The notes beneath the pieces are model-generated. The model saw only the letters and a program-made list of their open reading frames with translations, was not told the DNA's origin and ran no database searches. This document shows, piece by piece, positions 9,031 through 32,299 of a stretch of DNA of 43,909 nucleotides (the first letter of the stretch is position 1; each line of letters starts with the position of its first letter). The position numbers were made by a program, and so were the translations under genes. This stretch comes from Ardenticatenales bacterium (GTDB taxonomy: Bacteria; Chloroflexota; Anaerolineae; Promineifilales; UBA4811): the NCBI GenBank assembly GCA_030593075.1, contig JAUVHW010000003.1, positions 1-43,909 on the forward strand, in the 5' to 3' direction.

Positions 9031-9792
9031 ATGTCCTGGAAGTTCTACACCTCAGATGGGGAAGTCAAGGGCGTTGGTGCTGACGGCCCTACTGGTCCCA
9101 CGGGAGCCACGGGTGCTCAGGGCACTTCAGGCACGGCAGGCACAGGGCCAACTGGACCGACGGGAGCGACCGGACCGACGGGGGCGCAAGGCACATCTGG
9201 TACGGCAGGTACAGGTCCGACAGGTCCGACAGGTCCACAGGGAACTGCGGGAGCCCAAGGTACGGCGGGAGCTCAGGGTTCTCAGGGCACTGCTGGAGCC
9301 CAGGGCACCGCTGGTGCTACAGGAGCGCAAGGCCCTACTGGGCCAACGGGAGCGACGGGGGGGACAACTGCTGGTCCGACGGGCCCCACTGGGGCGCAGG
9401 GAACTGCTGGGAGCCAGGGCACGGCCGGGGCCACCGGTCCAGGGCCGCAGGTAATAGAGTTCGTCATCGACGGCGGCGGGTCAGTCATCGCAACCGGCAT
9501 CAAGGGCGATCTCGAAGTCCCCGGCGCTACTATCGCTGAGGCCCGGCTGCTGGCCGACCAGACCGGCTCCATCGTGGTGGACATCTGGAAGGACACCTAC
9601 GCCAATTACCCGCCCACCAACGCGGACACCATCACCGCCGCAGCGCCGCCCACCATCGCAAGCGGCGTCAAGGACAGCGACGTAACCCTCACTGGCTGGA
9701 CAACGACTCTCACCGCAGAGGACATCTTGAGGTTTAACGTGGACTCCTGCACGACGATCACACGCTGCACGGTGGCGCTGAAGGTGTCGTGA
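9031..9792 (+). CDS. Collagen-like tail-fibre protein
   Basis: 253 residues. After about 19 N-terminal residues comes a stretch of about 120 residues of Gly-X-Y triplets ([12 protein letters not shown]), encoded at 9088-9447, with a few breaks in phase. It forms a trimeric collagen-like stalk. The C-terminal 105 residues (from [10 protein letters not shown]) form a beta-rich head seen at the tips of other phage fibres. The stop overlaps the next gene by one base (TGATG). The Thr/Ala-rich, Pro-poor repeats are typical of bacterial and phage collagens, which trimerise without hydroxyproline. Confidence 0.85.
9088..9447 (+). repeat. Collagen Gly-X-Y coding repeat
   Basis: This is a degenerate tandem repeat of 9-base units encoding Gly-X-Y within the fibre gene. 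Units such as those encoding [10 protein letters not shown] and [10 protein letters not shown] recur as blocks, which is consistent with growth by slippage or unequal recombination. Length variation among relatives would be expected here. Confidence 0.85.
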
Positions 9793-11381
9793 TGAAGGGC
9801 GCAGCATACTACGATGAGGTCTACCGGGGCGAGTACGCGAGGGACGAAGGGCGCGTCCAGTTCGTCGCCGACCTCTGCCGGGGCAAGGTGCTGGACGTTG
9901 GTTGCGGTGACGGCATCCTGGCGACGCGCTGGGGCGGGGCCTATATGGGCGTGGACTTCTCGCAGGAGGCGATCAACAAAGCGCGTAACGGTGGCGATAA
10001 CCGCTTCGTGGTGAGGGACTTCCTGGACGCCCGCCCGCTGTCCGATACAACATGGGACACCATCGTTGTCGGCGAGGTGCTGGAGCATCTGAGCAAGACG
10101 GCCTGCCGGAAGCTGCTCAAGAAGGTCAAGGCTGCGCTCGCACCCGGAGGGCAGGTCATCGCCACCGTGCCCAACGGGGCATCCATCCCTGACCCGTCGC
10201 ACGTCCGAACCTTTGAGAACGGATCACTCGAAGAGGCCATCAAGGGCATCGGCCCAACGTGCGGCCACGCCTACTCCGACCGCTACGCCATCGCCACGGC
10301 TCATGCGGGCGGGCGCCCGAAGCTCTCCTGCGTCCTCATCGTCAAGAACGAGGAGGAGCTGCTGGGCAAGTGCCTAGAGTCCATGAAGGATCTCTGGGAT
10401 GAGCTGGTCATCGTGGACACCGGCTCGACCGATGGCACCGTGGAGATCGCTGAGTCCTACGGTGCGCGGATGGGGCGCTTCGCCTGGCGTGACGACTTCG
10501 GCGCGGCGCGGCGCTACGCCGAGGCGCTGTGTGCCGGCGAGTACGTCTACTGGCAGGACGCGGACGAGGTGCTGCTGGAGGGCCACGACATCATCCGCGA
10601 GATCGTAGAGGCGGGCGCGCAGGACGGGATCGCCCCATACCTCATCATGCGCCGTGACAGCGAAGGGCGTGCGGTGGACGGCTTTGTGCGCCAGGAGATG
10701 CTACACAAGAACGATGGGTCTTGGAAGTGGCATGGAGCCGCGCACAACTGGCTGAGCGGGACGGGTCGCACGGAAGACAGGCGCATCGTTATCGAGCACC
10801 TTGCGCGGCCCAGCGGTGACAGGCCGAACCACACCGACATCTTCGAGGCGCTTCGGGCGAACTTCACAGAGGACGCCACGATGGAGGAGCGCAACCTGTT
10901 CTACCTGATGCGTGAGCACCGCGACAAGGGACATTATCGAGAGGCCATCGCGCTTGTCGCGCTGATGATGCAGACGCCGCCGGCCTGGCCCCTCCAGCGC
11001 TCACGGGCCTGCATCATAGCCGGAGACTGCTGGAGGGCGCTGGGCAATGCTGAGAACGCGGCTCAGGCGTACCACAAGGCACTCGTGGAGTGCGCCGACT
11101 GGGCCGAGCCGTACTTCTGTCTCGGGCGGCTGCGCTATGAGCAGCAGAGGTGGCGTGAGGGAGCCGCGTGGCTGCACGCCTCGACCGGCTTCGAGCCGAC
11201 ATCCTACTTCACCGACCTGACGATCTACGACTGGCTCCGCTACGACCTCCTGGCCGTGTGCCTGTCCAAGCTGGGCCGGAACGAAGAGGCGCGGCTATGG
11301 GGTGCGAAGGCGCTGGCGGCACGGCCCGACGATGAGCACCTGAAGACGAACATGGTCTACTACCAGGAGGCTGCGGGCTGA
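9792..11381 (+). CDS. Methyltransferase / GT2 glycosyltransferase / TPR fusion
   Basis: 529 residues from ATG 9792 (a GTG one codon earlier is possible); coupled to both neighbours by TGATG overlaps. Residues 1-172 are a class I SAM methyltransferase with motif I VLDVGCGDG (33-41) and GGQVIATVPNG. Residues 178-400 are a GT-A family 2 glycosyltransferase (LSCVLIVKNEEE, VDTGSTDGT at 208-216, DAD at 256-258). Residues 395-529 look like TPR helices (DCWRALGNAENAAQAYHKAL). It probably transfers and methylates a sugar on a virion or host-surface glycan. GT2-TPR proteins are known in bacteria. The added methyltransferase is unusual. Confidence 0.85.
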   Translation: MKGAAYYDEVYRGEYARDEGRVQFVADLCRGKVLDVGCGDGILATRWGGAYMGVDFSQEAINKARNGGDNRFVVRDFLDARPLSDTTWDTIVVGEVLEHLSKTACRKLLKKVKAALAPGGQVIATVPNGASIPDPSHVRTFENGSLEEAIKGIGPTCGHAYSDRYAIATAHAGGRPKLSCVLIVKNEEELLGKCLESMKDLWDELVIVDTGSTDGTVEIAESYGARMGRFAWRDDFGAARRYAEALCAGEYVYWQDADEVLLEGHDIIREIVEAGAQDGIAPYLIMRRDSEGRAVDGFVRQEMLHKNDGSWKWHGAAHNWLSGTGRTEDRRIVIEHLARPSGDRPNHTDIFEALRANFTEDATMEERNLFYLMREHRDKGHYREAIALVALMMQTPPAWPLQRSRACIIAGDCWRALGNAENAAQAYHKALVECADWAEPYFCLGRLRYEQQRWREGAAWLHASTGFEPTSYFTDLTIYDWLRYDLLAVCLSKLGRNEEARLWGAKALAARPDDEHLKTNMVYYQEAAG

Positions 11382-12351: not shown

Positions 12352-12922
12352 GGTCTGCATCTCTATCCCGACGAAGGGCTCCGTCCGAGCTGAGACGATG
12401 GCCTGGACGGTGAGGGCGTACACCCAACTAGCGCCCAATGTTGAGGTGCATATCGTTCAGGAGAACATCCCGCTGGACGCGGCGCGGAACGTGCAGGCCG
12501 AGCGTTTCCTGGCCTCTAAGTGTAGCCACCTGTTCCTGCTGGACGCCGATTGCAACCCGCAGGACGAGACGATCCAGAAGCTGCTCGCTTGGGAACTGCC
12601 GTTTATCTCCGCGCCCCATCCGACGCGAAAGGGGGCCGACCGGATCATCATGGCGCTGGTGCGCAATAGCGAGGGCTACACGCCCCACCTGCCCGCGTTG
12701 GGGCTACAGATGGTAGACGCGGTGGGCGGCTCCGGCATCCTCATGGAGCGGCGGGTGCTGGAATGCTACGGCCCGCCGTGGTTCCGCACCCTCTACGATG
12801 AGCGGGGTGGGCTGGACAAGACTGAGGACTTCTGGGTGTGCGAGCGAGCCAAGGAGCACGGCTTCCAGGTGTGGGCCGACTTCAGCTTGGTGCAGCAGCA
12901 CATCCGGGAGGTGCCGGTCTAG
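12338..12922 (+). CDS. GT-A fold glycosyltransferase
   Basis: 194 residues with a TTG start at 12338. The upstream position is preferred because the first strand (RVCISIPTKG) is needed for the nucleotide-binding fold. LFLLDADCNP carries the DxD metal/UDP-sugar motif (residues about 67-72), and VGGSGILMERRVL is a typical acceptor-side strand. It probably works with the fusion protein at 9792 on virion or cell-surface glycans. It overlaps the previous gene by 14 bases and the next by 1. Confidence 0.7.
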   Translation: MQPPRVCISIPTKGSVRAETMAWTVRAYTQLAPNVEVHIVQENIPLDAARNVQAERFLASKCSHLFLLDADCNPQDETIQKLLAWELPFISAPHPTRKGADRIIMALVRNSEGYTPHLPALGLQMVDAVGGSGILMERRVLECYGPPWFRTLYDERGGLDKTEDFWVCERAKEHGFQVWADFSLVQQHIREVPV

Positions 12923-13605
12923 TGACGAATGTAATCTCGGCAGCCGACCCAGATGCAGGGGACAGGCATTATCTGCACTCAGGGTTCTCAGCTACGATTA
13001 CGACCAGCTACGCTCCTGGCTATACCCAAGTTGAGGGAATCACCTGGGATGGCAGCGACGTACTGGGCGTGTCAACTGCTACCAACAAGCACCACAAGCA
13101 CTCAGGGTTCTCGTCCACTATTACTAGTAGCTACGCGAGCCCCAATAGTTCCCCGACTGGTATTACCTGGGACGACGCCAACGTACTGAGCGCAGACGAC
13201 ACCTTCCTGGCCGATAAGCATTTCAAGCACTCAGGGTTTTCGAACACCATTGACGCTAGCTATAGTTCCCCGGCGGGTACCCCGAATGGCATCACCTGGG
13301 ACGATTCGGATGATGTACTGAGCGCGGATGCCGTAGCCGACAAGCACTATCAGCACTCCGGCTTCTCGGCGACGATTAGCAGTAGCTATGCCTCTCCATC
13401 AAGCATCCCTGAGGGAATCACGTGGGACAGCAGCGACGTACTAAGTGCAGACGATAACGCCGACAAGCACTATCAGCACTCCGGCTTCTCGGCGACGATT
13501 AGCAGTAGCTATGCCTCCCAGCAGTTTCCAAGAGGTATCACCTGGGACGGGCGTGGGGTCGCTGCACCGCCGGGCTTCATTCACGTGCAGGGCACGGTCA
13601 TCTAG
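12922..13605 (+). CDS. Five-blade beta-propeller-like repeat protein
   Basis: 227 residues with a GTG start overlapping the previous stop by one base. It contains five copies of a roughly 41-residue unit: H-SGFS-TI-SSYASP...GITWD-SDVLSADD-ADKH. The spacing and the WD, HSGFS and D-K-Y positions resemble NHL/SMP-30-type propeller blades. Five units make a small propeller or an open repeat. The protein ends in GFIHVQGTVI. The place after the fibre/glycan genes and before lysis genes suggests a virion or tip protein that binds a surface ligand. Confidence 0.75.
   Translation: MTNVISAADPDAGDRHYLHSGFSATITTSYAPGYTQVEGITWDGSDVLGVSTATNKHHKHSGFSSTITSSYASPNSSPTGITWDDANVLSADDTFLADKHFKHSGFSNTIDASYSSPAGTPNGITWDDSDDVLSADAVADKHYQHSGFSATISSSYASPSSIPEGITWDSSDVLSADDNADKHYQHSGFSATISSSYASQQFPRGITWDGRGVAAPPGFIHVQGTVI
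13336..13394 (+). repeat. 59-bp perfect direct repeat, copy 1
   Basis: The stretch encoding ADKHYQHSGFSATISSSYAS is repeated base for base at 13459-13517, an offset of 123 bases or 41 codons. Other blades are diverged, so the last two blades arose by a recent duplication or were homogenised by conversion. Confidence 0.9.
13459..13517 (+). repeat. 59-bp perfect direct repeat, copy 2
   Basis: Identical to 13336-13394. The identity ends at the boundary into the protein's C-terminal tail. Confidence 0.9.
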
Positions 13606-15110: not shown

Positions 15111-15139
15111 TTGACGCGGGGTACCCTGTGGGATATCCT
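15111..15139 (+). promoter_or_regulatory. Sigma-70 promoter for the small-gene operon
   Basis: TTGACG (15111-15116), a 17-base spacer and TATCCT (15134-15139) make a near-consensus promoter. Transcription would be expected to start 6-7 bases after the -10 box, at or next to the ATG at 15146, so the first mRNA would be leaderless. It is placed to drive the whole 15146-29317 array. Confidence 0.7.
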
Positions 15140-15265: not shown

Positions 15266-15632
15266 ACTAATCACTGGCTGCGCTCGCTGTGGTCGCACCT
15301 CCTCTCATCATCAGCGCTACGTGGTTGCTGACTGCGAGAAATGGGTGGGTGCGAAATGCGGCGATTGCGGCGAGTGGTGCTTCAGCATACGCGGTCAGTG
15401 TCGGCCCTGCTATCAGGCGGAAGCTACCCAAAAGAACGAGAGAGCGAAGCGCATGTACAACAGTCCGGGAGAGATTGCAGAACGGGAAAGGAGAACACAG
15501 AAACGATGGCTGAAGAAGGGAAAGAGAACACTAACCGAACTACGGAAGTATCTCCGGGAGCCCGAAGCACGCCCATCGCGGAGGGTGGCGTTCACACTGG
15601 AGAAGACTTTGCCCGCCTCATGTCGGCGCTAA
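15258..15632 (+). CDS. Zinc-ribbon protein with basic C-terminus
   Basis: 124 residues. The N-terminal 55 residues carry CARC, CGDCGEWC and CRPC, enough for two zinc sites; the C-terminal part is a Lys/Arg-rich helix (ERRTQKRWLKKGKRTLTELRKYL). Its last 127 bases overlap the 15506 gene in another frame. Within the overlap 27 of 41 third codon positions are G or C, so the tail may be real. A frameshift that lengthened it cannot be excluded. Confidence 0.6.
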   Translation: MTELITGCARCGRTSSHHQRYVVADCEKWVGAKCGDCGEWCFSIRGQCRPCYQAEATQKNERAKRMYNSPGEIAERERRTQKRWLKKGKRTLTELRKYLREPEARPSRRVAFTLEKTLPASCRR

Positions 15633-15802
15633 TGAGCGACGTGATCGAGGGGCGGATCGCTCCTGAGATCGCGAACGCAACGTGCAACGCAGGCGGCAAG
15701 CTCTTGAAGGTTGTCGAGATGCAGTACAAGTACGCGGGCCAAGGGGACACGGCCCAACCTTTGGCCGCACCGACACTGGTACTGGCGCGAGAGAAGGTGT
15801 GA
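15506..15802 (+). CDS. Hypothetical phage protein starting inside the previous gene
   Basis: 98 residues from ATG 15506, with AAAGGAG (15487-15493) upstream. The second half (FARLMSALMSDVIEGRIAPEIANATCNAGGKLLKVVEMQYKY) is a clean amphipathic helical segment resembling a small unnamed phage family. The first 40 residues are low-complexity and lie over the 15258 gene. A one-base overlap (TGATG) couples it to the next gene. Confidence 0.7.
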   Translation: MAEEGKENTNRTTEVSPGARSTPIAEGGVHTGEDFARLMSALMSDVIEGRIAPEIANATCNAGGKLLKVVEMQYKYAGQGDTAQPLAAPTLVLAREKV

Positions 15803-16056
15803 TGGCTGAGGTGGAAGGCACGACGCTGAAGTGCGCTGGTTGCGGCGTAGAGTGGGTCGCGGAGATGTGGCGCGACTACGACGATCCCTGTCGCGACGGT
15901 GAATGGTACTGCGTCCCCTGCCTCCTCGCTAACAAGTGCGGGTGTCCGCACCGCCTGAGGGTCAAGGACGCGGAGGCTGCCATTGCCGCGTACTGCAACG
16001 ATGTCCTCAAGACCTCGCCCATGCGTAGCCGCGCCGTGAACGAGGTGCTGCCATGA
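15802..16056 (+). CDS. Zinc-finger protein
   Basis: 84 residues with CAGC, a Cys after DDP, CVPC and CGC-H, enough for two treble-clef-like zinc sites, then a short helix (KDAEAAIAAYCNDVLK). No enzyme motif. Start and stop overlap the neighbours by 1 and 4 bases. Confidence 0.65.
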   Translation: MAEVEGTTLKCAGCGVEWVAEMWRDYDDPCRDGEWYCVPCLLANKCGCPHRLRVKDAEAAIAAYCNDVLKTSPMRSRAVNEVLP

Positions 16057-16411: not shown

Positions 16412-16618
16412 ATGGGTGAGGTAATTATTGTCGGTGCCATCTGTGGGAACTGCGGGGTGGCAACCGCTCTCCGCATCACCAGGGAAGCTGAACCGCAGCA
16501 ATTCCCCGTGGTTGTTCCTGTTGAGTGGGCACGGCAAGCGCTGGAGTGTCGGCGGTGCGACGGCCGTGTCCGCATCGCCACCGAGCCGGTAGCCCCCACG
16601 CCAGCGGAGGCGAGCTGA
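16412..16618 (+). CDS. 68-residue zinc-ribbon protein
   Basis: Two CxxC pairs (CGNC near residue 11 and CRRC near residue 46) flank a beta-like middle. This is a rubredoxin-like zinc ribbon. Coupled to the HNH gene by a TGATG overlap. Confidence 0.65.
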   Translation: MGEVIIVGAICGNCGVATALRITREAEPQQFPVVVPVEWARQALECRRCDGRVRIATEPVAPTPAEAS

Positions 16619-17055
16619 TGAGAACGGCCCAAGACGTGCGGTTCTGGTCGAAGGTGGCGAAGGGCACAACCGATGAGTGCTGGCCTTGGCAAGGCTACAC
16701 CGTCAAGGGTTACGGGTACTTCTCATTGGGCGGCTACGCCAAGGTAAGAGCGCACCGCTACAGCTATGAGCAGTTGGTGGGGCCCATCCTTGAAGGGCTA
16801 GAGATAGATCACCTTTGTCGGGTGCCAGTCTGTGTAAACCCCGCCCACCTAGAAGCCGTGACTCATCGCGAAAACGTGCTACGCGGTAATAGCCCGAGTG
16901 CGTTGGCCTCAAAGGTCACTCATTGCCCGCAGGGGCATCCATATGACGAAGTGAATACCCTGTTCCGGACTTTGGGCTGGCGGGAGTGTCGCATCTGTCG
17001 TCGCGGGCGGCGGCGAGAGTGGTGGCAACGCCGAAAGGAGAAGCTGGTCGCATGA
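16618..17055 (+). CDS. HNH homing-type endonuclease
   Basis: 145 residues. A FW-KV...CWPW...GYGYFS opening and AHR are followed by the HNH core: IDHLCRVPVCVNPAHLEAVTHRENVLRG (residues about 60-90). The C-terminal zinc site is HCPQGHPYDE...CRIC. This is the HNH_3 arrangement of free-standing phage homing endonucleases. A paralogue with the same layout is at 31850. It sits 352 bases upstream of the structured RNA region, which deserves attention since such enzymes often accompany mobile introns. It overlaps the next gene by 4 bases. Confidence 0.85.
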   Translation: MRTAQDVRFWSKVAKGTTDECWPWQGYTVKGYGYFSLGGYAKVRAHRYSYEQLVGPILEGLEIDHLCRVPVCVNPAHLEAVTHRENVLRGNSPSALASKVTHCPQGHPYDEVNTLFRTLGWRECRICRRGRRREWWQRRKEKLVA

Positions 17056-17246
17056 CCGAGCTAGAGCCGACGCTGAAGGAGTTACTAGAGCGCGAGCTGA
17101 GGGGCGTCTTTGGAAGCCACCCGATCCCCAGTTCCGCTCCCCTGTCACGGCGACGGGGGCTAGAGCAGAAGTACGCCGAGCTGTACCAGCGGTTGGTGGC
17201 CATTGGGGCCAAGCCACAACTGAGAAGGAGGTATCGGCATGCCTAG
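17052..17246 (+). CDS. 64-residue helical protein
   Basis: The charged helix-forming sequence (MTELEPTLKELLERELRG, LEQKYAELYQRLVAI) has no cysteines. It begins in an ATGA overlap with the HNH gene and ends in the recurring ATGCCTAG stop/start overlap with the next gene. Function unknown. Confidence 0.6.
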   Translation: MTELEPTLKELLERELRGVFGSHPIPSSAPLSRRRGLEQKYAELYQRLVAIGAKPQLRRRYRHA

Positions 17247-17406
17247 CTGCCGGCACTGGTGGATCATCGCCACCCCGAACGGCGTCACCAGCCGCGGGAT
17301 CTGCAAGCGATGCGGGGCAGAGCGCGACTACCCCAACGCCGGCCGGGACCTGTCCCCGCGCAACCGGCCCTCACAGGTCGAGCGGGTGCTGGAGGTGGCA
17401 CCATGA
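17239..17406 (+). CDS. 55-residue CRHWW zinc-finger protein
   Basis: The sequence (SCRHWWIIATPNGVTSRGICKRCGAERDYPNA) has three cysteines plus His for one zinc site. It matches a small family common in phages and some high-GC bacteria, with the signature H-W-I-PNG-TS-G-CK-CG. It starts in an ATGCCTAG overlap. It is the last protein gene before the structured RNA region. Confidence 0.7.
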   Translation: MPSCRHWWIIATPNGVTSRGICKRCGAERDYPNAGRDLSPRNRPSQVERVLEVAP

Positions 17407-17980
17407 CGTTCCTCAGAGATCCCGTAGGTCGGAGGCTTGCCTCCTGTTTACCTGCGTGGCCTGCGGGATCTCTCGGTTGCGTCAAGGATGACGCCTCCGC
17501 AGTCTGGCCCCCCGGCGGGTCTCCCCCGCCACCAGTCCCCGCTGGGGGGTCGCTTGGGACATGGACGGGAGAGGACATGCGATGAGAGCCGTTGTCGTGC
17601 AGGACCCAGCGAAGCCGCGGCAATGTTCCTGCCCACCGATAAGGGGAGAGATACCCCACCGCGCTCATCGTCCTCTCCCGCCCGCGCCTCAGGCTTGGGA
17701 CTTAGACGCCGGGGAACAACACGAGAGGCCACCTGCCCCCGTGCACACGGCGGGCTTACTCGTGCCCCGGCGTCTGCGTCTCAGGCTCAGAGCGGAGGGC
17801 GTGATGGGGTTAGCTGATGGGTTCCCCTCGTTCGGCCAGCCTACACACGCTCTCCGCCCTGCGCCCGAAGGCTCGGGCCAGAGCGTGGGAGGAGGGTACA
17901 GGTATGCGCAGGCGGTGAAACCCGCCAGAGACAGCAGAAGGCCCGGCACCACTCGGGCGTCGGGCCTCCACATCCACTAC
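17407..17980 (+). ncRNA. Large highly structured noncoding RNA (about 570 nt)
   Basis: No convincing protein is found here, but most of the sequence folds locally. Helices: 17415-17430/17458-17473 (16 pairs, two G-U) capped by hairpin 17431-17444 with a CUUG loop; 17479-17483/17490-17494; 17506-17513/17544-17551 capped by 17514-17519/17525-17530; 17566-17576 plus 17581-17586 with 17664-17680 (17 pairs, 4-base bulge) enclosing 17599-17604/17627-17632 and 17643-17646/17654-17657; 17703-17714/17765-17776 enclosing 17720-17725/17759-17764 and 17735-17742/17747-17755; 17792-17803/17846-17857; 17863-17868/17873-17878; 17911-17915/17922-17926; 17939-17947/17959-17967. A possible pseudoknot pairs 17451-17456 with 17907-17912. 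Size and ornate fold recall phage RNAs such as GOLLD and ROOL; membership is untested. Confidence 0.75.
17939..17967 (+). terminator. 3'-terminal GC hairpin of the structured RNA
   Basis: Seven perfect pairs plus two (17939-17947 with 17959-17967) close a GC-rich loop. This is the last strong helix before the ribosome binding site at 17983. No T-tract follows, so it is more likely an RNA 3' boundary or processing signal than an intrinsic terminator. Confidence 0.35.
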
Positions 17981-17995
17981 CTAGGAGATTAGCAG

Positions 17996-18217
17996 ATGGA
18001 GACTGAGAATGGAACCCCCCGCGTACCTGATGCCCATCGTGTTCGCCTTCCTCGGGTGGGCGTTCGTAATGCGCGACTTCGTGCGAGGGCGCTAGGCCTC
18101 CTCGCCGCCACTGCCGCCGGAGTCCACCTGGGCTTCCTGGGCGGTGGCCCGCGCAGGCGCAACCGTGAGGACTGCGGCGAGGGGCGGCTGGAAGATGACG
18201 TGCTGTTCGATGCCTAG
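17996..18217 (+). CDS. Alternative 73-codon ORF after the RNA
   Basis: The ATG has AGGAG (17983-17987) at ideal spacing, and the stop forms the recurring ATGCCTAG overlap with the next gene. Third codon positions are unbiased in the first half and GC-rich only after about 18096. The first half therefore looks non-coding and is probably a shadow of the 18009 microprotein. Either this or 18009-18095, or both, may be translated. Confidence 0.3.
   Translation: METENGTPRVPDAHRVRLPRVGVRNARLRARALGLLAATAAGVHLGFLGGGPRRRNREDCGEGRLEDDVLFDA
18009..18095 (+). CDS. 28-residue membrane microprotein
   Basis: The sequence (MEPPAYLMPIVFAFLGWAFVM then RDFVRGR) is a single hydrophobic helix with a basic tail, like the 22802 microprotein. 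25 of its 28 sense codons end in G or C, matching the genome's coding bias, whereas the overlapping 17996 frame does not. It lies directly downstream of the structured RNA. Confidence 0.5.
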   Translation: MEPPAYLMPIVFAFLGWAFVMRDFVRGR

Positions 18218-18404
18218 CCGCAAGGCCCAGCGCGACGCAGAACTCGTGCGGCAGGGTGCCGAGCGGCGGCTGGCGAAGAAGCCGAAGGCCTGCGAGTGCG
18301 GGCATGGGCGCGGGGCGCACGCCATTCTTACCGCTAAGTGCCAAAGTGGGCGAGGTCGCCGCACTCTCTGCGACTGCCCCGGCTACCAGGAGGCGAAGTC
18401 ATGA
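18210..18404 (+). CDS. 64-residue Cys-rich basic protein
   Basis: The start is in an ATGCCTAG overlap. An alternative ATG at 18195 or GTG at 18144 would lengthen it. A basic helix is followed by CECGHGRGAH...C...CDCPGY, which gives one zinc site. The end overlaps the next gene by 4 bases. Function unknown. Confidence 0.6.
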   Translation: MPSRKAQRDAELVRQGAERRLAKKPKACECGHGRGAHAILTAKCQSGRGRRTLCDCPGYQEAKS

Positions 18405-18976: not shown

Positions 18977-19185
18977 TGGAGGCGCCCAAGGCCGAGCGCG
19001 TCGAGGAACTCTGGGTAGATCGGGCGGAGCGCCTGAGCGATGAGATGCAGCGTGCGGATCACTACGACCTCTACGACGCAGAGGAGAACGAGCGCGTGGC
19101 CCGCGAGCTATGGGCCTCGCTGCCTGCGTCCTTCCACAAGCACGTCAAGAAGATACTCACGGCAGAGACAGGAGGAGAACGATGA
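18976..19185 (+). CDS. 69-residue acidic helical protein
   Basis: Charged helices (KAERVEELWVDRAERLSDEMQ, ENERVARELWASL). It overlaps the annealing-protein-like gene by 4 bases and may be its small partner. No motif recognised. Confidence 0.6.
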   Translation: MEAPKAERVEELWVDRAERLSDEMQRADHYDLYDAEENERVARELWASLPASFHKHVKKILTAETGGER

Positions 19186-19973
19186 CGACTGATCAAGAAG
19201 CATTGGTGGTTCGCCCAACGGGTGAACAGGGCCTGGTCAACGTGGAGTTTGCCATGCAGGAATGGGAGGCGTATCAAGAGCTCACCCGCCGCCTGCTAGA
19301 CAAGAAGACCGACTACCAGAAGATCGGCAAGGGCGAGTTCAAGAAGAAGTCTGCGTGGCGGAAGTACGCCCGCGCCTTCAACCTCTCATCCGAAGTGGTG
19401 AGAGAGGAGATAGAGCGGGACGCGGATCACTACCCCGTCTTTGCCAGAGTGGTAGTGAGGACAACCGACCCCGCTGGACGTTTCCAGGAAGCCGACCAGG
19501 AGTGCCATATCACGGAGCGGTGCTGCGATGGGCGTGTTGGCAAGTCCTGCTACAAGGCGCGGTACGATAGCCACACCTGCTGTACCTCGACGTGCGATGG
19601 CAAGACCCACTTCTCTCATCCGGGAGACTTGGTAGCCACGGCCACTACTCGCGCAAAGAACCGCTCCATCAGCGACCTCATTGGCGCTGGCGAGGTGAGC
19701 GCCGAGGAGATGACGGACCCCCCGAACGGTAGCGCCACCCCTAAAAAGGCGGCTCCCCGTGAGGCAGAGCCGGTTGACGCTGCCGCCGACCCCAACAAGG
19801 CGCGGCACGATCTCAAGCAGATGCTGGACGCCAAGTACCCCGACGAACAGGAGCGCGTGCAGTGGATGGAGGAGAACGCGCCGACCGGGGTACGCGGCAC
19901 CAACGTCATGATCGGCGACATGAGCGACGCCGGGGTGGACGCTGCCCTGGCGGTGCTGGGCAACGCCGACTAG
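19182..19973 (+). CDS. Putative DNA-recombination protein, single-strand-annealing-like
   Basis: 263 residues after an AGGAGG site. KKSAWRKYARAFNLS (residues about 50-65), the region VFARVVVRTTDPAGRFQEADQEC, and the motif TRAKNRSISDLIGAGEVSAEEM (residues about 162-185) follow the order and feel of Rad52/ERF/RecT-type annealing proteins. In those the last motif helps bind DNA. It has an extra Cys cluster (CC...SC...CCTSTC) that may bind zinc. RusA, encoded nearby, would resolve the products. The family link is by motif similarity only. Confidence 0.5.
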   Translation: MTTDQEALVVRPTGEQGLVNVEFAMQEWEAYQELTRRLLDKKTDYQKIGKGEFKKKSAWRKYARAFNLSSEVVREEIERDADHYPVFARVVVRTTDPAGRFQEADQECHITERCCDGRVGKSCYKARYDSHTCCTSTCDGKTHFSHPGDLVATATTRAKNRSISDLIGAGEVSAEEMTDPPNGSATPKKAAPREAEPVDAAADPNKARHDLKQMLDAKYPDEQERVQWMEENAPTGVRGTNVMIGDMSDAGVDAALAVLGNAD

Positions 19974-31515: not shown

Positions 31516-31786
31516 CCATAAGATACATAGTGCGATCATCCCCAGACTCGCTTGTGACGTATAGCCATAGCCGATGGCCCAGAGAGGGTATCCCCCATCA
31601 GCCTTATCAATGCACCAGGGGGGTTGCCGAAGCAACAAGGCCCCCCTGGGGTGTGCTAACAGAAGGTGGGGGTACGGCGGCTGTGGCTGAGTTTGGTCCC
31701 GGCTCGCTAGATGTAGAGTGTGGGACTTACTTCCAGCGGAATATCCGCCAACCGTAAAAAGGGGATTCGCCTTGACCGTGGGTATA
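31516..31786 (+). other. Structured intergenic region upstream of the HNH gene
   Basis: No convincing gene. It folds into separate hairpins: 31564-31568/31574-31578; 31573-31577/31595-31599 (alternative); a 9-pair CCAGGGGGG stem 31615-31623/31641-31649 holding an inner TTGC-CGAA-GCAA hairpin (31624-31635); 31696-31700/31722-31726; and 31736-31740/31744-31748. It may be a terminator cluster, an untranslated RNA or the remains of a mobile element tied to the HNH gene. Confidence 0.5.
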
Positions 31787-31795
31787 TGCTACACT
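31766..31795 (+). promoter_or_regulatory. Extended -10 promoter candidate for the HNH gene
   Basis: TGCTACACT (31787-31795) is an extended -10 element; TTCGCC (31766-31771) is a weak -35 at 18 bases. A TTGACC at 31772 is too close to serve. The expected transcript begins at the hairpin that starts at 31800. Confidence 0.4.
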
Positions 31796-31799
31796 GAGA

Positions 31800-31828
31800 G
31801 CGGCAGCACCGTAAGTTCGGTCTGCCGC
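31800..31828 (+). promoter_or_regulatory. 5' leader hairpin of the HNH mRNA
   Basis: GCGGCAG/CTGCCGC (31800-31806/31822-31828) stacked on ACCG/CGGT with one bulged C: 11 pairs right at the expected 5' end. It would protect the message or be a regulatory site. The AGGAGA ribosome site at 31837-31842 remains free. Confidence 0.45.
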
Positions 31829-31849
31829 GTGACACCAGGAGAAAACCTG

Positions 31850-32299
31850 ATGTGCTCTAAGTGTACCCACCATACGCGAACAGTGGAAGAGCGGTTCTGG
31901 GAAAAAGTCGGACCCAGTGGTACTGCGGACTGCTGGCCCTGGACGGGGGGTGTAAACAGCCAGGGCTACAGCGCCCTCCGCGTCGGTAAGATGAAGGTCT
32001 ATGCCCACCGCTGGATCTACGCGCACTGGTTCGGGTCCATTCCTGCGGGGCTCACAATCGACCACCTGTGCCGAAAGCGCACCTGCGTCAATCCTACCCA
32101 CATGGAGGTTGTGACTCGGGGCGAGAACGTCTTGCGCGGAATCAGTATTTTCGCCCAGAATGCCCGGAAAACCCACTGCCTCCGGGGGCACCCATTTGAC
32201 GAAGCCAATACGCGCCTGGTCAGGAAAGGCCGGCAATGTCGCATCTGCGCAGAGAGGGCTTGGCGGAAGCGTTATGCTGCCACGAAGGCGTTGCCCTAA
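31850..32299 (+). CDS. HNH homing-type endonuclease, paralogue of the 16618 gene
   Basis: 149 residues from ATG 31850 with AGGAGA seven bases before. An N-terminal CSKCTHH is followed by FWEKVG...CWPWTGG, AHRWIY, the HNH core TIDHLCRKRTCVNPTHMEVVTRGENVLRG and the C-terminal zinc site HCLRGHPFDEANT...CRIC. It shares layout and many residues with 16618-17055. Its own promoter and leader and its position splitting the packaging genes are typical of a mobile, self-expressed homing gene. Confidence 0.88.
   Translation: MCSKCTHHTRTVEERFWEKVGPSGTADCWPWTGGVNSQGYSALRVGKMKVYAHRWIYAHWFGSIPAGLTIDHLCRKRTCVNPTHMEVVTRGENVLRGISIFAQNARKTHCLRGHPFDEANTRLVRKGRQCRICAERAWRKRYAATKALP

Follow-up and report, generated by a model that had tools for sequence, protein, structure and literature searches.

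A noncoding gap of 589 nt in a small phage genome very probably gives rise to a large RNA whose structure has been under selection. The window, that is the whole stretch of 43,909 nt that we analysed, is a phage contig inside a metagenome-assembled genome (3.86 Mb, 422 contigs). The gap spans positions 17407-17995 on the + strand of the contig. By the tests made, the RNA belongs to no known family, being neither GOLLD nor ROOL nor a member of any intron family, and it is possibly an undescribed RNA class. Its most likely mechanism, to which we give an even chance, is action in trans as a stable RNA after release from the early transcript.

A folded noncoding gap in the early operon

The + strand carries nearly all genes of the phage contig. 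Recognisable among them are the large and small subunits of the terminase, a RusA resolvase, a DNA methyltransferase and a replication initiator, as well as an endolysin-type amidase whose Pfam match is weak and below the curated cut-off. No tRNA gene was found in the window. The tail-side genes include a collagen-like GPTGPT repeat protein (9031-9792), a fused methyltransferase/glycosyltransferase-like ORF (9789-11381) and a tandem HSGFSATI repeat protein (12922-13605). Three HNH-type ORFs are present in the 44-kb phage, at 24-554, 16525-17055 and 31718-32299. The second of these, on the + strand upstream of the RNA, is a homing-endonuclease-type gene of the HNH_3 family (Pfam PF13392, E = 1.3e-11).

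The gap extends from the stop codon at 17404-17406, which ends a 55-aa zinc-ribbon-like ORF without Pfam match (17239-17406, + strand), to the first in-frame ATG that follows it, at 17996. The actual start of the following gene may instead be 18009, where the sequence and its translation indicate a possible 28-aa membrane peptide (MEPPAYLMPIVFAFLGWAFVMRDFVRGR, 18009-18095, + strand) with a GGAG of its own. The earlier note had claimed that these 589 nt carry no convincing protein, and the length and the claim both hold. On a codon model trained with the phage's own long genes, negative scores were obtained for all ORFs of 40 aa or more within 17407-17992, and no Pfam domain was matched in any tested frame of 17407-17995. 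By the same two tests, no conserved protein frame with coding character runs across the gap.

The folding energy of the gap was compared with that of 150 dinucleotide shuffles. The minimum free energy (MFE) of the + strand is -315.4 kcal/mol, against -267.5 +/- 7.3 kcal/mol in the shuffles (z = -6.6), and none of the 150 reaches the real energy. The z-score is -7.1 for the slightly longer segment 17400-18000. With a G+C content of 67% long helices form more easily, and the shuffles control for this composition. In a scan of the entire 43.9-kb contig, the most extreme 200-nt interval is 17701-17900 on the + strand. The most extreme 400-nt interval is 17601-18000, which lies -30.9 kcal/mol below its shuffles where the contig spread is 7.3. 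Further noncoding gaps are present in the contig and none of them folds like 17407-17995, the strongest outlier. Several hundred noncoding nucleotides that fold beyond chance are two of the traits that the descriptive term large structured phage noncoding RNA denotes, covariation among homologues and an abundant discrete transcript during infection being the others.

The head of the operon is marked by an early promoter-like site, TTGACG-N17-TATCCT, at 15111-15139 on the + strand, about 2.3 kb upstream of the RNA. In our consensus scan, a single promoter-like site on the + strand followed the endolysin gene both in the window and in a related phage, G059, which is presented below and in which the site reads TTGACA-N17-TATCCT (L002:3699-3727). 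The pattern TTGACN-N17-TATCCT has a single match in the window and none in 100 shuffles, and among the loci compared it was found only in the G059 copies. As it was defined after both sites had been seen, we take it as supporting evidence only. A zinc-ribbon-like ORF (MPKVELPTRKCKRCKHEWVPRQAETRLCPNCKK...) starts at ATG 15146, 6 nt after the site in the window, and with this spacing the first of the early mRNAs may have no leader. Directly flanking 17407-17995 there is neither a promoter-like site nor a fitting intrinsic terminator, so that a discrete transcript requires processing. The main proposal of the earlier note, that the early operon of a phage contains a large structured noncoding RNA, is supported: the region is noncoding, strongly folded on the transcribed strand and downstream of a promoter-like site recurring in G059.

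Predicted anatomy of the RNA

The structure predicted from folding energy comprises 25 helices and 224 pairs. Most pair probabilities are above 0.85, and those of the main helices range from 0.86 to 1.00. The structure is coextensive with the intergenic gap, which it fills and with which it ends. The earlier note had counted at least 13 helices, with G-U pairs among them, and had singled out four stems; all named stems are among the 25 helices, and 22 of the 224 pairs are G-U.

An outer closing helix of 13 pairs (17400-17414/17889-17903, + strand; MFE, mean pair probability 0.87) encloses most of the RNA, namely stem A, a small hairpin, stems B and C and a second junction bearing stems D and E and hairpin F. 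Stem A (17415-17473, pair probability 0.99) contains the 16-pair helix described previously (17415-17430/17458-17473), with the hairpin GGAGG-CUUG-CCUCC at its tip and a small side hairpin. It is followed by the small hairpin GCGUCA-AGGA-UGACGC on a 3-pair base (17474-17499, pair probability 0.85-0.90) and by stem B (17500-17563, pair probability 0.86), a G+C-rich helix of 16 pairs (17506-17522/17534-17551) with a weaker base. Stem C (17552-17694) has a branched tip and includes the 17-pair stem with its 4-base bulge (17566-17586/~17663-17680). An alternative fold, in which basal pairing makes stem C longer, lies only 1.1 kcal/mol above the MFE. Stem D (17692-17787, pair probability 0.98-1.00) consists of 22 pairs plus 6 more and carries two apical hairpins; the perfect 10-pair stem extended to 12 is found here, at 17703-17714/17765-17776. 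The second junction is completed by stem E (17788-17861, pair probability 0.88), a long hairpin of 31 pairs including 6 G-U, and by hairpin F (17863-17878, pair probability 0.93).

Three hairpins lie 3' of the outer helix. Hairpin G (17905-17936) has its core at 17911-17915/17922-17926, with a pair probability of 0.95. Hairpin H (17937-17969), which is formed in the fold prediction by the last of the named stems, that of 12 pairs (17937-17950/17956-17969), is a G+C-rich stem that resembles a terminator but has no U tract. It received no intrinsic-terminator call and is a possible 3' end. In hairpin I (17973-18000, pair probability 0.69) a Shine-Dalgarno-like GGAG is partly in the loop and the AUG at 17996 is in the stem.

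The adjacent stems C and D (17552-17787) have common arm sequences, GCTTGGGACNTNGACG ... GCGYCTCAGGCT. The basal arms of stem C, GCUUGGGACAUGGACG / GCGCCUCAGGC, are a repeat of those of stem D, and the arm consensus of both stems is GCUUGGGACNUNGACG ... GCGYCUCAGGCU. This arrangement is only suggestive of an origin by internal duplication: considered singly, the two repeats are equalled in 15 and 21 shuffles, respectively, out of 200.

Searches for homologues and the related phage G059

Covariation is what normally proves that an RNA is structured, and homologues were sought in several collections. At curated thresholds, Rfam gave no match anywhere in the window, GOLLD, ROOL and introns included. 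At E <= 10 over 17000-18400 nothing relevant was retrieved, with no match to GOLLD, ROOL, an intron or HEARO. The Rfam comparison with GOLLD, ROOL and group I and group II introns that the earlier note had suggested therefore returned no family. The resemblance to GOLLD and ROOL which that note had pointed out stands for size and style; it does not extend to the covariance models, unmatched even at E <= 10, or to the surroundings, where there are no tRNA genes nearby.

Sequence searches with the RNA were equally negative. No blastn match was obtained against 50,697 phage records and 72,556 plasmids, and nothing was found in the rest of the host bin, in which the segment is single-copy. A search of 1.6 Mb of related loci with nhmmer --max gave none either. 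Single-sequence covariance models of stems D and A detected only themselves in 0.6 Mb of loci, and the stem D model (R1) run against 298 genomes detected only the window copy. The repeated junction pattern CTCAGGCTTGGGACNTNGAC was absent from IMG/VR. Among the blastn matches, one of 28 nt to L014 in 58 related genomes was attributed to chance, since no neighbouring similarity was present, and one of 34 nt to L060 in 396 genomes of the class was likewise judged to be chance. Other strongly folding segments were discarded: the outliers L035 and L027 are either AT-rich sequence from beyond the phage group or coding sequence, and those of G060 to coding or terminator-like sequence. The strongest 200-nt fold outlier among six scanned loci was L008:6301-6500 (z = -10.6), L008 being a relative reached via the protein encoded at 19182-19973.

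Searches with the portal, terminase, tail and zinc-ribbon proteins recovered only two other members of the lineage, G059 and G770, the latter a 26-kb fragment in which the RNA region is not covered. G059 is the IMG/VR phage 3300037247_000872 (L002/L016), also reached via the 19182-19973 protein. It is 44 kb long and apparently complete, with a 127-bp terminal repeat. Its identities with the window are 54% for the terminase, 50% for the portal, 47% for the tail protein and 51% for the 19182-19973 protein. The HNH ORFs 16525-17055 and 31718-32299 both match one HNH gene of G059, which is located between the terminase and portal genes on the opposite strand.

The strongest 400-nt fold outlier of G059 is a noncoding gap of 570 nt (15414-15983; L002:3594-4163) directly after the endolysin gene, with z = -4.6 on the + strand and -2.5 on the - strand. 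Its most strongly folded part begins a few bases from the expected start site (z = -5.4 for the 397 nt from there). The two RNAs are found in the same lineage, have similar lengths, are each the top fold outlier of their genome and lie downstream of a shared promoter-like motif that follows the endolysin gene. In contrast, they have no detectable sequence similarity, and the G059 RNA stands at the operon start and not 2.3 kb into the operon as in the window. Being unalignable and differently placed, the two RNAs do not demonstrate common descent; they may be one diverged class or two independent RNAs. No Rfam match was found for the G059 RNA. From the position of the motif, both RNAs would be made early, at different positions of their transcripts. 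The broader idea that the two belong to a single class of large phage RNA, specific to this lineage and diverging fast, is in our view doubtful; such RNAs would always be made early from a TTGAC-N18-TATCCT promoter and would function by shape, perhaps as an RNA-only particle, and not by sequence.

A second strongly folded segment of G059, L002:5590-5800, has a 22-bp stem (z = -4.2) and lies among small early genes. It was considered as a shorter homologue, which was plausible by eye but yielded no alignment. In addition, a palindrome-like operator, TGTCCTAATGTTAGGACA, is located at L002:4147-4164, where a ribbon-helix-helix-like gene has its start codon (4164); its position suggests autoregulation of the G059 early operon.

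Possible roles and comparison with known phage RNAs

In the mechanism that we infer for the transcription, processing, stability and trans action of the RNA, an RNA of ~570-590 nt would be transcribed from the + strand as part of the early operon, starting from the promoter-like site at 15111-15139. Host RNases would probably free it from the polycistronic transcript, its rigid helices protecting it. The freed RNA would then persist as an abundant stable species and act in trans during infection, in the manner reported for the ICP1 RNA, GOLLD and ROOL. By analogy only, a scaffold or self-assembling RNA particle would be its most likely form.

The chief rival, which we consider possible although it is not the reading that we favour, is a structure acting in cis within the early operon: it could block RNases, cause transcription to pause, mediate antitermination or slow translation of the next gene, and no separate RNA would matter. 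The location of the segment inside the operon, with no promoter of its own, is consistent with this, as are the overlap of hairpin I with the next Shine-Dalgarno sequence and AUG and the placement of the G059 RNA as a leader directly after the promoter-like site. However, a branched structure of nearly 600 nt with a long-range closing helix far exceeds what an element of this type requires, and the two phages have their RNAs in different positions, mid-operon in the window and as a leader in G059.

It is improbable that the segment functions as DNA, the hairpin array serving in double- or single-stranded form as, for example, a replication origin or a recombination or packaging site. The many inverted repeats would suit such an element, and folding beyond chance is seen for the - strand of 17407-17995 as well (z = -4.2). 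Yet the + strand fold is clearly better in both phages, and the values for the window (z = -6.6 against -4.2) favour an RNA made from the operon strand over hairpins in DNA. Moreover, G-T mismatches outnumber A-C mismatches in strand-symmetric repeat arms, the GC skew does not change sign at the segment, and the segment lies in a unidirectional run of genes far from those for the terminase and for replication initiation.

A decayed gene or a fast-evolving region of small proteins, with an accidental fold, is more improbable still. Open frames of 60 and 143 aa do chain across the gap, but on the phage codon model the ORF 17403-17585 scores -14.4 and the 143-aa frame ending at 17992 scores -0.4 at best, neither has a Pfam match, and the folding energy was attained by 0 of 150 shuffles. 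A mobile intron or selfish RNA (group I or II intron, IscB/TnpB guide RNA) tied to the HNH_3 gene that ends 350 nt upstream is scarcely credible, given that no intron or HEARO model of Rfam is matched at a threshold as loose as E <= 10, that this gene is outside the folded segment, encodes a small HNH_3 protein unlike what a HEARO/IscB guide RNA would call for and has a relative elsewhere in G059, and that the segment occurs once in the host bin.

Large ornate phage RNAs such as GOLLD, ROOL and the ICP1 RNA can be abundant, and their functions are unknown; GOLLD and ROOL form RNA cages. If a stable RNA acting in trans is indeed made here, a further RNA without a family would be present in a compact 44-kb phage devoid of tRNA genes, with a different analogue in its nearest relative. 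Rather than a handful of odd families, RNAs of this kind would then seem to be a recurrent and replaceable component of the early programmes of phages. It would also make a small genome available for testing their role.

Many GOLLD members exceed 800 nt, and a location near phage tRNA genes is frequent among them, though not universal. The window RNA resembles GOLLD in being large, ornate, encoded by a phage (or prophage, for GOLLD) and of unknown function, whereas it is shorter, has no covariance-model match and has no tRNA genes nearby. Cages made only of RNA are formed by both GOLLD and ROOL, two phage RNAs without a known function (PMC12286853). The solved ROOL RNA, of 659 nt (PMC12286853), is similar to the window RNA in length, phage origin and multi-helix build, in a comparison made by predicted secondary structure only; unlike ROOL, the window RNA is not near tRNA genes and is unmatched by the covariance model. 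The lytic phage K also has long noncoding RNAs, which are abundant transcripts encoded beside its tRNA genes (PMC9241854); they differ from the window RNA in this location, in having been seen as transcripts and in showing no sequence match to it. The nearest precedent in setting is the Vibrio phage ICP1, which lacks tRNAs and whose most abundant transcript by RNA-seq is an ORF-less RNA of ~800 nt beside the lysis cluster (PMC7567579). That RNA was seen by RNA-seq, whereas the window RNA is predicted from the sequence and has no match in the phage collection, but both are phage-borne and ORF-less, lie in or near the lysis region of a phage without tRNA genes and are of a similar order of size.
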